A DNA stretch of 64,000 bases from Caballeronia sp. M1242 (GTDB taxonomy: Bacteria; Pseudomonadota; Gammaproteobacteria; Burkholderiales; Burkholderiaceae). Positions within the stretch are counted from its first letter, which is position 1. Each line of letters begins with the position of its first letter. The notes below the pieces were generated by a model. The model saw nothing but the letters and a program-made list of their open reading frames with translations. It did no database searches and was not told the DNA's origin. A program made the translations under genes and the position numbers. The stretch covers positions 124,001 through 188,000 of the forward strand of contig NZ_CP071129.1 in assembly GCF_017220215.1 (NCBI RefSeq). The letters run 5' to 3'. Below are positions 35,375 to 38,976 of the stretch, one piece after another.

Positions 35375-36001
35375 ATGTCACTTGCTGAGTTGAAACGACC
35401 GTTGGCGCTTGCGCTCGCCTGCATCGCGATGCTCGCCGGCTGCGCGGCGAGCCCGCCCGCGACGCAGGACGCGCGCTACGACCTCGGCGCGCGGCCCGCC
35501 GCGAGTCCTGCGAGTGCCACGACCGAAGCGCCGATGCCGCCGGTCAAAGTGCTGGCGGTGCGCGCGTCGCGTGATCTGGAAACCGACGCGTTCGTCTATC
35601 GCCTGAGTTACGTCGATGCGCAGCGCACCGGCAGCTATGCGACGAGCCACTGGACGATGCCGCCCGCGCAGCTTCTCACGCAGCGATTGCGCGATACGCT
35701 CTCGCAACGCGGCCCGGTGCTCACGGGCGCGGACACGGTGCGCGCGCCGTTGCTGGAGATCGAGCTGACCGGCTTCGAACAGGTCTTCGATGCGCCGGAA
35801 AGAAGCCACGGCGTCGTATCGGTGCGCGCGACGCTCACTCAGCATGGCCGCGTCATCGCGCAGCGGATGTTCACGGCGAGCGCGCCCGCGCCGAGCGCCG
35901 ATGCATCGGGCGGCGCGCGGGCGCTGGCGGCGGCATCGGACGATCTGATCGCGCAACTCGGCGCGTGGCTCGGCGCGCAGCCGCTCACCGCATCGCGATG
36001 A
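35375..36001 (+). CDS. ABC-type transport auxiliary lipoprotein (PqiC-like)
   Basis: 208-residue lipoprotein: signal peptide with lipobox MLAGC and mature domain with YDLGARP, VRASRDLETDAFVYRLSYVD and LEIELTGFEQVFD, as in the PqiC-like auxiliary lipoproteins. It probably links the Mla-like pump to the outer membrane. It replaces the soluble MlaC/MlaA pair, which is not seen here. It starts 34 nt after mlaD. Confidence 0.85.
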   Translation: MSLAELKRPLALALACIAMLAGCAASPPATQDARYDLGARPAASPASATTEAPMPPVKVLAVRASRDLETDAFVYRLSYVDAQRTGSYATSHWTMPPAQLLTQRLRDTLSQRGPVLTGADTVRAPLLEIELTGFEQVFDAPERSHGVVSVRATLTQHGRVIAQRMFTASAPAPSADASGGARALAAASDDLIAQLGAWLGAQPLTASR

Positions 36002-36050
36002 CGGCGCGTTTCATCGTCAATCCGCTCGAACGGACGCGCCTGGGCGGCTC

Positions 36051-37229
36051 ATGACGATCAAGCAATGGCAGCGCCGCCCGTCGGCGTTCTCGCGGCAGGC
36101 GCTCGTCGCGTACGCGATGCTCGTCGTGTACGGCTCGCTGTATCCGTTTTCCGGTTGGCGCTCGCTCGGTCTCGGGCCGTTCTCGTTCCTGACCGATCCG
36201 CTGCCGCGTTACCTGACGGCCTTCGATGTCGTCACCAACGTCCTCGGTTACATGCCGCTGGGCGCACTGATCGTGCTCGCGCTTTATCCGCGCTGGCGCG
36301 GCTCGCTCGCGGTGTGCGCGGCGTTCGCGGGCGGCGCGCTTTTGTCGGGCGCGATGGAATCGATCCAGACGTATCTGCCGACGCGCGTCGCGTCCAACCT
36401 CGATCTCGCCGCTAATGCGCTCGGCGCGCTGATCGGCGGCGTGCTCGCCGCGCCCGCGACTAGCTCGCTGCTCGACCGCGGCTTGCTGCGGCGGATTCGC
36501 TTCACGTGGTTCGAGCGGCACGCGGCCTATGTGATTGGGCTGTCGGCGCTTTGGCCGTTCGCGTCGATGTTTCCTGCGCCGTATCTCTTCGGCGGCGGCG
36601 ACTTGCCGCGCGTGCTGTGGGATCAGCTCGATCCGGCGATGCAGGACGCGATTCTCGCGTGGACGCCCGCCGCGTGGGACGTCGAGACGTGGCCGGACCG
36701 CCTTGGCGCGCTGTTGCCCGACGAATCGTGGGAGGCGATGATCACGTCGTCGAATCTGTTCGCGGCGCTCGTGCTCGTCACGCTGCTCACGCGCGAGCGC
36801 GCGCCGCGCATTCGGCTGATGCTCGGGCTGATCGTCGCGACGCTGGTGGCGAAGGCGGGCGCTTCGTTCCTGCAATCGCGCGCCGGGCTGACCTTCGACT
36901 GGGCGACGGACGGCGCGCTCGAAGGCATCGGGATCGGCGCGGTGGCGGGCGTGCTGGCGGTGTCGCTGCCGCGTGCGCTGCGGGCGGCGCTGGCGGGCGC
37001 GGCGCTCGTCGTGGGGCTCGCGCTCGTGAATCTGCTGCCGGTGAATCCGTACTTCGATATCGTGCTCGCGGATTGGCGGCAGGGGCGGTATCTGCACTTC
37101 AACGGGCTGCTGCACTGGCTCGCGTGGGTGTGGCCGTATGCGGCGTTGGGGTGGCTGGCGTCGGCGGCGGAAAGGGCGTGGATGGGGCGGCGGCGGGGTG
37201 GGGGAGATGGTGCGGGCGGGGATCGCTAG
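36051..37229 (+). CDS. VanZ family membrane protein
   Basis: 392-residue polytopic protein. The N-terminal VanZ-like domain has VVYGSLYPFSGW, DVVTNVLGYMPLGALI and SGAMESIQTYLPTRVAS-NLDLAAN; several further TM helices occupy the C-terminal half. VanZ of enterococci gives low-level teicoplanin resistance, but the role of proteobacterial members is unknown. GC content and codon use look typical. The stop is 3 nt before the hairpin repeat array. Confidence 0.85.
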   Translation: MTIKQWQRRPSAFSRQALVAYAMLVVYGSLYPFSGWRSLGLGPFSFLTDPLPRYLTAFDVVTNVLGYMPLGALIVLALYPRWRGSLAVCAAFAGGALLSGAMESIQTYLPTRVASNLDLAANALGALIGGVLAAPATSSLLDRGLLRRIRFTWFERHAAYVIGLSALWPFASMFPAPYLFGGGDLPRVLWDQLDPAMQDAILAWTPAAWDVETWPDRLGALLPDESWEAMITSSNLFAALVLVTLLTRERAPRIRLMLGLIVATLVAKAGASFLQSRAGLTFDWATDGALEGIGIGAVAGVLAVSLPRALRAALAGAALVVGLALVNLLPVNPYFDIVLADWRQGRYLHFNGLLHWLAWVWPYAALGWLASAAERAWMGRRRGGGDGAGGDR

Positions 37230-37231
37230 AG

Positions 37232-37480
37232 CGACCGCCTTGCATGGGCCGCGAGTAAGGCGCTAAAGCGCCAACTCCCGCCGACCGCTCTGCATGGGGC
37301 GGGAGTAAGCGCTAAAGCGCCAACTCCCGCCGACCGCCTTGCATGGGGCGGGAGTAAGCGCTAAAGCGCCAACTCCCGCCGACCGCCTTGCATGGGGCGG
37401 GAGTAGGCGCTAAAGCGCCAACTCCCGCCGACCGCCTTGCATGGGGCGGGAGTAAGGCGCTAAAGCGCCAACTCCCGCCG
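37232..37480. repeat. Five tandem ~49-bp hairpin repeats
   Basis: Five consecutive units begin at 37232, 37283, 37332, 37381 and 37430 (lengths 51, 49, 49, 49, 50). Each has a linker GACCGCCTTGCATGG, then nested inverted repeats: GGCGGGAGT, aa, (G)GCGCT, aa, AGCGCC, a, ACTCCCGCC. Arms are 9 + 5-6 bp, giving an unusually stable stem. Copy 1 has substitutions in its left arm; copies differ by one base at TAAGGCGC/TAAGCGC/TAGGCGC. The array fills the gap between vanZ and the -10 of the ferredoxin gene. Confidence 0.95.
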
Positions 37481-37503
37481 ACACATCCCCCGACATCGCT
37501 CGC

Positions 37504-37509
37504 TATAAT
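37504..37509 (+). promoter_or_regulatory. -10 box for the ferredoxin gene
   Basis: Exact TATAAT 29 nt before the ATG and 24 nt after the last repeat unit. No good -35 hexamer is present at 16-18 nt upstream, so the edge of the repeat array occupies that place. Confidence 0.55.
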
Positions 37510-37537
37510 CGACCGACACCCCCATCGCCGGACGCTC

Positions 37538-37867
37538 ATGGACTCCTTCTACAAGTACCACGTGTTCTTCTGCCTGAACCAGCGCGATGCCGACGCCTCG
37601 CGTCCCAGTTGCGCGAACTGCAACGCGCAAGCCATGCAGGAGCACGCGAAAAAGCGCGTGAAGAAGCTCGGCCTCGCCGGCGAAGGCAAAGTGCGCATCA
37701 ACAAGGCCGGCTGTCTGGACCGCTGCGAACAAGGGCCGGTCGTCGTCGTGTATCCGGAAGGCACGTGGTATACGTATGTCGATGAGACCGACATCGACGA
37801 AATCGTCGATTCGCATCTCGCTAACGGCAAGATCGTCGAGCGTCTTCTGATCGATCAACCCGTCTGA
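37538..37867 (+). CDS. (2Fe-2S) ferredoxin domain protein
   Basis: 109-residue thioredoxin-like [2Fe-2S] ferredoxin. Cysteines are spread as VFFCLNQRD, SCANCNAQ and GCLDRCEQGPVVVVYPEG; the cluster ligands are probably the first Cys, one from the CANC pair and both in CLDRC. Typical of the free-standing shethna-type proteins next to hydrolases in beta-proteobacteria. The upstream open frame through the repeat array is not coding. The next gene starts 11 nt later. Confidence 0.9.
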   Translation: MDSFYKYHVFFCLNQRDADASRPSCANCNAQAMQEHAKKRVKKLGLAGEGKVRINKAGCLDRCEQGPVVVVYPEGTWYTYVDETDIDEIVDSHLANGKIVERLLIDQPV

Positions 37868-37878
37868 CGCCCGCCTTC

Positions 37879-38505
37879 ATGAACGCGCAAACAGAAAAAT
37901 TTCTGATCGACGGCCCGGCGGGCAAGATCGAAGTCGCGCTCGATCGCACGGAGTCCGCGCCGCGCGGCATTGCGCTCGTCGCGCATCCGCATCCGCTCTT
38001 CGGCGGGACGATGGACAACAAGGTCGCGCAGACGCTTGCGCGCACCTTTGTGCAGCTCGGCTATACGACGTATCGCTCCAATTTTCGCGGCGTCGGGCAG
38101 ACCGGAGGCGAGCACGACAACGGCATCGGCGAGCGCGAAGACCTGCTGGCGGTCATCGATCACATGCGCGCGCAACCCGGCCAGCGCGACGTGCCGATCG
38201 TGCTCGCGGGCTTTTCCTTCGGCACCTTCGTGCTGTCGCATGTCGCCAAGCGCATGCAGGAAAGCGGGCAGGCAATCGAGCGCATGGTGTTCGTCGGCAC
38301 GGCGGCGAGCCGCTGGGACGTGGCGCCGGTTCCCGAGAACACGCTCGTGATTCACGGCGAAGTGGACGATACCGTGTCCATCGCCTCCGTCTACGACTGG
38401 GCGCGGCCGCAGGAACTGCCGGTCGTCGTCATTCCGGGCGGCGAGCATTTCTTCCATCGCAAGCTACATATTCTCAAGCGCGTGATCGTCGACGCCTGGC
38501 GTTAG
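37879..38505 (+). CDS. Alpha/beta hydrolase (dienelactone hydrolase-like)
   Basis: 208-residue small alpha/beta hydrolase. It has ALVAHPHPLFGGTMDNKV, RSNFRGVGQTGG, nucleophile-like GFSFGTFV, acid in VIHGEVDDTV and His in GGEHFFHRKL. This group is recognised by the HPHP-x-GG motif. The substrate is unknown. It is cotranscribed with the ferredoxin gene. Confidence 0.9.
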   Translation: MNAQTEKFLIDGPAGKIEVALDRTESAPRGIALVAHPHPLFGGTMDNKVAQTLARTFVQLGYTTYRSNFRGVGQTGGEHDNGIGEREDLLAVIDHMRAQPGQRDVPIVLAGFSFGTFVLSHVAKRMQESGQAIERMVFVGTAASRWDVAPVPENTLVIHGEVDDTVSIASVYDWARPQELPVVVIPGGEHFFHRKLHILKRVIVDAWR

Positions 38506-38976
38506 GTTTCCGAAGGCTTTTGCCGCGCGCTGGTTCACGCGGTCATCGCGAATCGACATTTCGCTTAAGGCATCGCCTGAAAAAGCGCGGATTGGCGCTG
38601 GATTCACGCAGATTCGCCGTAATCGCGCTCCTGGCCGCGCGTATAATGGCGCAGAATTTTTTCGCCGCGACTCCGCGTCACAACGCGCTTTCCAACGTTG
38701 TGCCCGCACGCTGTGACCCGACGCTGCGGCGAAAAGCCCGACGCCAGAGCGCCGGCTCATTGCCGGCCTACGCGACGTTCGAAAACAAACGTTTGAGAAC
38801 CGATGGCGCGGCCGTCTGTCGAATGTGCGCTCCTTCGCTGCGGCACCCCGCGTGCCCGTTTCGCCAGCAGGCGAAGAGCGCGACCGGCATGAACGGTCTG
38901 CCTGTTCAACCCGCGCTTCGCCGCCTTTCGGATCATCCCGGGCGGAGCGCCGATGCTCTTTCTGCCGACCGATCCT
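38506..38976. other. Intergenic region upstream of the DD-carboxypeptidase gene
   Basis: 471 nt. An exact TATAAT at 38642-38647 is the best promoter candidate, without a good -35, and would give a leader of about 320 nt. The leader is GC-rich with several short inverted repeats. An open frame crossing it (38520-39197) has no family features. No gene or riboswitch was recognised. Confidence 0.45.

Follow-up and report, generated by a model that had tools for sequence, protein, structure and literature searches.

A tandem hairpin array of Caballeronia sp. M1242 as an expanded copy of a dispersed, leader-associated element of Burkholderia sensu lato

Between a VanZ-like and a ferredoxin-like gene of Caballeronia sp. 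M1242 lies a head-to-tail series of hairpins, and the locus raises the question of what such an array is and whether it serves one of the two genes beside it. An earlier note, made from the letters alone, had described it as stem-loop repeats that might stabilise or end the upstream mRNA or be a REP-like element multiplied by a RAYT protein. What that note observed was confirmed in part, and its interpretation is likewise partly supported.

The array and its flanking genes

The stretch of DNA analysed (64 kb, hereafter the window) belongs to a genome of 5.76 Mb in four contigs. Among 13 rows returned for it by Tandem Repeats Finder the array was the top-scoring one (period 49, 5.1 copies, 95% matches, score 449), with five contiguous units of 50, 49, 49, 49 and 50 nt followed by a closing GAC (Table 1). 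The five units of about 49 bp recorded by the earlier note thus stand, and its distances of 3 nt from the vanZ stop and 24 nt to a TATAAT are both true to within a base. Each unit consists of a 15-nt linker, GACCGCCTTGCATGG, and a hairpin of the form GGCGGGAGT-AA(G)-GCGC-TAAA-GCGC-CA-ACTCCCGCC. The linker had been called constant; it deviates in unit 2, which has GACCGCTCTGCATGG instead. A nested inverted repeat had been claimed for every unit and was present in units 2 to 5, whereas the left arm of unit 1 is imperfectly paired, making its hairpin the worst paired of the five (−14.8 vs −25.1 to −29.1 kcal/mol). The array strand as a whole folds at −157.2 kcal/mol (z = −9.7), and none of 200 shuffles was as good. 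The 23-nt core of the hairpin occurs five times in the window, all forward, and at up to three mismatches it was found zero times in 100 window shuffles.

The VanZ-like identity of the upstream gene is sound (Pfam PF04892, E 7e-11), while the ferredoxin call for the downstream gene rests on a Pfam match just below threshold (24 vs 24.8 bits). Contrary to what had been stated, the array leaves part of the gap between these genes free, since 55 nt including a promoter-like box separate it from the downstream ATG.

Table 1 Features of the array and its surroundings (positions in the window)
Feature	Position	Strand	Evidence or remark
Upstream gene, VanZ-like protein	36051..37229	+	PF04892, E 7e-11
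Tandem array, five head-to-tail units then GAC	37232..37482	+	Sequence and Tandem Repeats Finder
Hairpin of unit 1, left arm imperfect, 7/9 outer pairs	37248..37282	+	−14.8 kcal/mol
Hairpin of unit 2	37298..37331	+	−25.1 kcal/mol; model 73.3 bits
Hairpin of unit 3	37347..37380	+	−25.1 kcal/mol; model 74.1 bits
Hairpin of unit 4	37396..37429	+	−29.1 kcal/mol; model 69.1 bits
Hairpin of unit 5, then constant GAC (37480–37482)	37445..37479	+	−27.3 kcal/mol; model 71.1 bits
TATAAT box between array and next gene	37504..37509	+	In 30/30 fetched loci, with or without array
Downstream gene, ferredoxin-like; by eye without clear Shine-Dalgarno sequence before its ATG	37538..37867	+	Weak Pfam match

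A dispersed family and its place before genes

The window array is an expanded member of a family of hairpin elements dispersed through Burkholderia sensu lato. The element is laid out as 5′-CGCCnTGCATGG, a hairpin of 34 or 35 nt whose outer arms vary while its core is constant, and GAC-3′. A covariance model found the element in 51 of the 58 genomes of the genus with 0–71 matches each (at most 108 candidates scored per genome; one hairpin can score on both strands, and the filters were tightened), and BLAST with the array gave matches in 44 of the 58. The exact 22/23-nt core was present in 126 of 398 family genomes, which represent 5 of the 25 genera, and no genome contained the reversed pattern used as a control. 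Of 200 genomes sampled across the order, a sample with few element-bearing genera, two matched the model, both of the home genus (at most 31 candidates scored per genome). In the genome scan, at least 120 core loci came from Burkholderia, Paraburkholderia, Caballeronia, Trinickia and two lactobacilli. Carriage by phages was considered and rejected, as the exact core was not found in viral contigs and BLAST with the array gave no match in phage records.

In the lactobacilli, the core AGTAAGCGCT(A/G)AAGCGCCAACT was seen at loci L100, L113, L128 (Secundilactobacillus odoratitofui DSM 19909) and L183 (Lacticaseibacillus pantheris). S. odoratitofui (GC 0.44–0.46) carries a separate intergenic multi-stem palindromic repeat with the 22-nt core in three copies; in a fourth copy the inner stem has varied, and the outer arms covary. 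This repeat has no GCATGG, and no Shine-Dalgarno sequence by the test applied to the 174 clusters described below. The Secundilactobacillus core may reflect shared recognition or convergence.

The genome's own 22 model matches comprise the window array (5), a second array (7), one pair, two singles and six weak matches (32.7–35.3 bits); the last were not counted, since they lack GCATGG and, by eye, fall within the spacers of rRNA operons. The second array ends GACAGGAGACACGG-ATG, and the pair (L382, C1:569040-569132) stands 12 nt from AGGAGG. From its protein start, we take the gene that follows the pair to be elongation factor G-like.

Copy number also varied at the window's own site. The downstream gene is present in 57 of the 58 genus genomes, and among 30 orthologous loci fetched from these the model found 5, 3, 5 and 3 units in four (own included), a single weak match of 18.9 bits in a fifth, by eye a decayed remnant, and no match in the other 25; in one of these a remnant is recognisable by eye. 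The earlier note had named a hairpin confined to this place and fixed in copy number among relatives as the outcome that would make a mobile, REP-like origin improbable; what was found is a dispersed element of variable copy number. At one of the ferredoxin loci (L219, genome G041) the array is kept and the upstream sequence is unlike that of relatives, a rearrangement ending in or at the array.

All loci were reduced to 174 clusters with distinct flanks, of which 91 were single copies and 83 were arrays of 2 to 14 copies (at up to three substitutions), spaced mostly 45–56 nt apart. Of the pairs of neighbouring copies less than 200 nt apart, 176 shared a strand and 2 did not. An association with gene 3′ ends had been envisaged in the earlier note; the orientation of the element instead follows gene starts, 140 clusters pointing toward a downstream gene on the same strand and 24 against (p about 4e-21).

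A Shine-Dalgarno sequence, a start codon and at least 40 open codons followed within 45 nt downstream in 102 of the 174 clusters, compared with 25 of 870 random positions in the same loci. In the genome-scan loci alone the fraction was 67/122 among the matches listed, and with the lactobacilli left out it was 102/170, all four of these being without the site. Two clusters had a Shine-Dalgarno sequence on the opposite side only, one had it on both sides, and 70 of the 174 had it on neither, among them the window's own array and the four lactobacilli rows. The distance was narrow, with the Shine-Dalgarno sequence beginning 3, 4 and 5 nt past the right arm in 47, 10 and 21 of the 102 (78/102), and the typical arrangement from hairpin to start was GACAGGAGA-N-ATG.

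Neighbour settings were counted for 161 of the 174 clusters (13 with unknown neighbour left out), with gene context taken from a codon-usage caller, not from annotation. A start codon lay 8–20 nt past the element in 59 of the 92 co-directional settings and in 23 of the 42 divergent ones, and since the two behave alike the element marks both intercistronic gaps and the leaders of genes that come first. In the annotated Caballeronia sp. SL2Y3 an array stands 27 nt before the start of a class II aldolase gene; the same site in the relative Sq4a holds an apparent decayed remnant, and four other Caballeronia records had no core there. Apart from the VanZ-like, ferredoxin-like and aldolase genes, neighbours were named from their protein starts, and the downstream genes so named presumably include trpA, carB, etfA and fusA.

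A role as a plain insulator of the Shine-Dalgarno site was not supported by folding: predicted accessibility was 0.526 in native sequences, 0.496 with the last unit shuffled (p = 0.14) and 0.489 with that unit replaced by upstream sequence (p = 0.20; n = 88), so that the native value was not significantly above either.

In several Caballeronia, a larger palindrome (TTACTTTCTTTGC ... GCAAAGAAAGTAAC or GCCAAGAAAGTGACC) bears single copies at its apex and is itself another dispersed repeat (L378 1380–1720, L379 1380–1720, L103, L106, L112, L139, L150, L151, L155, L156 and L186).

Pairing of the stem and the natural series at atpD-atpC

Of 323 copies of the element, 230 had all six outer positions paired and 74 had five of them paired, and the arms made up 115 different pairs. 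Among 201 distinct hairpins, found via the core without selection on arm pairing, 91.1% of the cells in the outer six pairs were paired, compared with 72.8% after the arms had been re-dealt (the highest of 500 re-dealings reached 74.5%), a type of control that, here and at atpC, leaves relatedness among the sequences in place. The inner stem covaries as well: most copies have GCGC/GCGC, and the own genome's second array has GGGC/GCCC. A pairing of 99.1% in the set behind alignment A2 and model R1 is biased upward because its 44 sequences, hand-picked from 63, had been preselected on arm pairing (the 63 were prefiltered for at least 5/6 arm pairs, GCATGG and GAC). The suggestion of the earlier note that the repeat had multiplied recently with its stem preserved is one that we share.

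In the leader of atpC, 26 distinct single-copy sequences (alignment A1; 27 with one duplicate dropped) were paired in 88.7% of cells vs 78.5% in shuffles, and slid versions reached at most 43.8%. The covariation score was 0.421 vs 0.228, a value reached in none of 500 shuffles, and 58 cells had changed on both sides vs 22.5. Two of the five measures stayed within the range of the shuffles, namely pairs with two-sided change (8 vs 6.5; 84/500) and pair types (23 vs 21.2; 96/500). In several of the atpC hairpins the family core is lost and the stem still pairs, which speaks for constraint in place. A mini-ORF inside the unit (ATG GGN NNN GAG TAA) was discarded, as on reading its stop is not kept at atpC.

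The atpD-atpC spacer of 65 Burkholderia genomes provides a series of filled and unfilled sites. A hairpin abutted the Shine-Dalgarno site in 45 (a 46th locus, L289, was an artefact); 12 sites had collapsed to the left arm, 6 were precisely empty, 1 was rearranged and 1 had no spacer. As 19 of the 65 lack the hairpin there, it is dispensable at atpC. The collapsed sites look like deletions between two copies of GGAGT. In the empty ones CTCAACC is joined directly to AGGAGTCGATATG, and a typical filled site reads CTCAACC-CGCCGTGCATGG-hairpin-GAC-AGGAG; what the empty sites lack is thus the unit CGCCnTGCATGG-hairpin-GAC, the same one that is repeated in the window array. Because one and the same site carries no hairpin, one, a few or an array of up to about 13 copies (13 being the largest count), the old question of whether such repeats serve the host at all can be put directly to the test on a natural series. 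Upstream of CTCAACC, at L278–L312, another long stem of variable sequence was seen by eye in the Burkholderia spacer.

A proposed leader role, alternatives and known repeats

The element is real, widespread and ordered, REP-like and yet located in leaders and directly tandem; its function we infer. Our preferred reading, to which we would give an even chance, is that of a leader hairpin in mRNA, predicted to govern the translation or the persistence of the cistron that follows. A role as RNA in leaders is favoured by the narrow distance, by the direction and by the compensatory change in place, and the element likely tunes the strength with which the downstream gene is read. The unit would be transcribed and would fold, the edge of the hairpin next to the landing site of the ribosome would change initiation or protect a processed mRNA end, and extra units could arise by slippage or unequal exchange between the direct repeats.

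Narrow Shine-Dalgarno geometry, orientation and covariation were found for the family and not for the window's own copy. The latter is atypical for a leader role because a TATAAT conserved in all 30 fetched loci separates the array from the gene. The main transcript of that gene probably does not include it in its leader, and it may be a displaced copy whose effect, if any, is on the end of the vanZ mRNA or on read-through.

An extended form of the leader reading strikes us as rather unlikely in its entirety. It would make the element a self-spreading translation-leader cassette, a unit of about 49 nt that settles before ribosome-binding sites across the Burkholderia clade, its copy number serving as an evolvable control of the gene that follows, also in core operons (atpC and, by protein starts, trpA, carB, etfA and fusA), while its core would be recognised by a factor that distant bacteria share. 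The last part of this proposal derives from the 22-nt core with covarying outer arms that is also present in the Secundilactobacillus repeat.

By its placement the element resembles the TAACTGA repeats of marine Beggiatoaceae, which, in the available part of the source, are intergenic, direct and mostly of one orientation just upstream of start codons, with no functional pattern among the genes and a post-transcriptional role proposed (PMC4679880). The element shares with them direct repetition, a single orientation and a place just 5′ of starts. Their unit of 7 nt, however, has little predicted structure and overlaps the ribosome-binding site, the canonical form of which is rare there according to the same text (PMC4679880), whereas the element is a covarying hairpin unit of 49 nt just upstream of a canonical site. 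Among the matches listed by a search of the open literature, which also covered its exact letters, no title or abstract opening describes this element as a leader element (subscription papers lay outside its scope).

The main rival to a leader role, possible if doubtful in our judgement, is that of a selfish REP-like DNA element whose single-strand hairpin is moved by a Y1/HUH-type enzyme preferring AGGAG (CTCCT on the other strand). The position in leaders would then be target choice and not function, and a mobile element choosing its target in this way could account for the adjacency to AGGAG. What is known of REP-type repeats is mainly that they are extragenic DNA of uncertain purpose, and the element shares several features with them: it is a short, imperfect palindrome, extragenic and dispersed as singletons and clusters, with a conserved mismatch in its stem and a conserved 5′ flank (GCATGG), and it may resemble the E. 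coli REP core, TAAGCG...CGCA. The range of 0 to 71 model matches per genome within one genus (at most 108 candidates scored), the precisely empty sites at atpC and the many clusters without gene-start context also fit a selfish element. So does a weak Rfam match to naRNA4 (RF02564), an RNA that derives from a REP; the matches lie on the minus strand and span two array units, at 38.6 bits vs a gathering score of 59.5, and the array is not a member by Rfam's rule. In all, Rfam 15 gave 12 matches at E ≤ 1 in positions 36,900–37,900, none at its gathering score.

The same comparison also separates the two. In the part of the source available, REPINs are inverted doublets, and REPs stand beside RAYT genes (PMC3116915). 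On a third trait given there, hundreds of copies per genome, the count of 0 to 71 weighs neither way, since at most 108 candidates were scored. Neighbouring copies of the element are direct in 176/178 pairs and single copies are commonest; they stand 5′ of genes at a narrow Shine-Dalgarno distance, and no RAYT link was found. A RAYT-like gene is present in 57/58 genus genomes, 233/249 family genomes and 18/25 family genera, including genera free of the element, and the core (at up to three substitutions) was in none of 55 RAYT-like loci, partly from the same genomes (L043–L067, L314–L343; up to ~1.5 kb on each side). The earlier note's REP-like element thus stands as far as a dispersed element goes, and multiplication by a RAYT finds no support here. 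Matches to a pattern with seven substitutions in three RAYT-like loci were, on reading, attributed to chance. Also against a selfish element, no cognate transposase could be tied to it, the motif MPQAVHLL in the RAYT-like protein is, by eye, what we take to be a degenerate HUH motif, and the compensatory change at atpC persists after the family core is lost. The corresponding Y1-transposase-domain gene (G000:C1:2542675-2543358; L045, L314) has one match in most family genomes, and its product is perhaps a domesticated RAYT-like protein. The family, for its part, keeps to a narrow geometry where translation begins, and does so in core genes.

By analogy with REPs, which are said to protect or end the transcripts of some E. 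coli operons, the hairpins might act as a 3′-end barrier or attenuator that protects or ends the vanZ transcript, which we regard as improbable. Here the array begins 2 nt past the vanZ stop and has the very stable fold given above, and an upstream stop lay within 25 nt in 15 of the 59 co-directional leader cases. The family as a whole, however, is oriented to gene starts, is also found between divergent genes and is rare in convergent settings (2/174). The terminator role put forward in the earlier note fared no better, as there is no T run and none of six terminator-like sites in positions 36,000–38,600 is inside the array.

A binding site for a regulator or nucleoid protein at the level of DNA is more improbable still. 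The core and flanks are constant, and the window array adjoins a promoter-like box; against this, the outer arms change jointly to many sequences, which double-stranded recognition would not require, and the Shine-Dalgarno site follows within a narrow range of distances.

Among the matches listed in the open literature, core-bearing repeats were found in print only as 'orphan CRISPR' repeats. In the portion of the Paraburkholderia study available, 5 of 32 repeats in Table 4 (3 distinct; the search pattern included letters of repeat 23) share the core, with cas genes 'not identified' for them, and repeat 23 lies letter for letter within elements of four fetched loci (PMC5968390). That the window array is itself an orphan CRISPR array is scarcely credible, for although it too is made of palindromic direct repeats, the linkers are near-identical within each array read here (the published ones being a separate matter), and 91 of 174 clusters were detected as single copies, which also occur at gene leaders. 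The overlap suggests that some 'orphan CRISPR' arrays of Paraburkholderia merit re-examination.

No specific link to the antisense sRNAs of Rfam family RF02278 (PMC5688073, available in part) is claimed: GTCTCCT complements AGGAGAC, the sequence often following the element, but AGGAGAC was taken to be a general site. A predicted RF02278 'toxic' sRNA (L396, own genome C1:2641216-2641276) lies ~0.9 kb from the second array. GTCTCCT itself was seen in two of four RF02278 stretches, and the other two, given on the opposite strand, read GGAGGAGAC.
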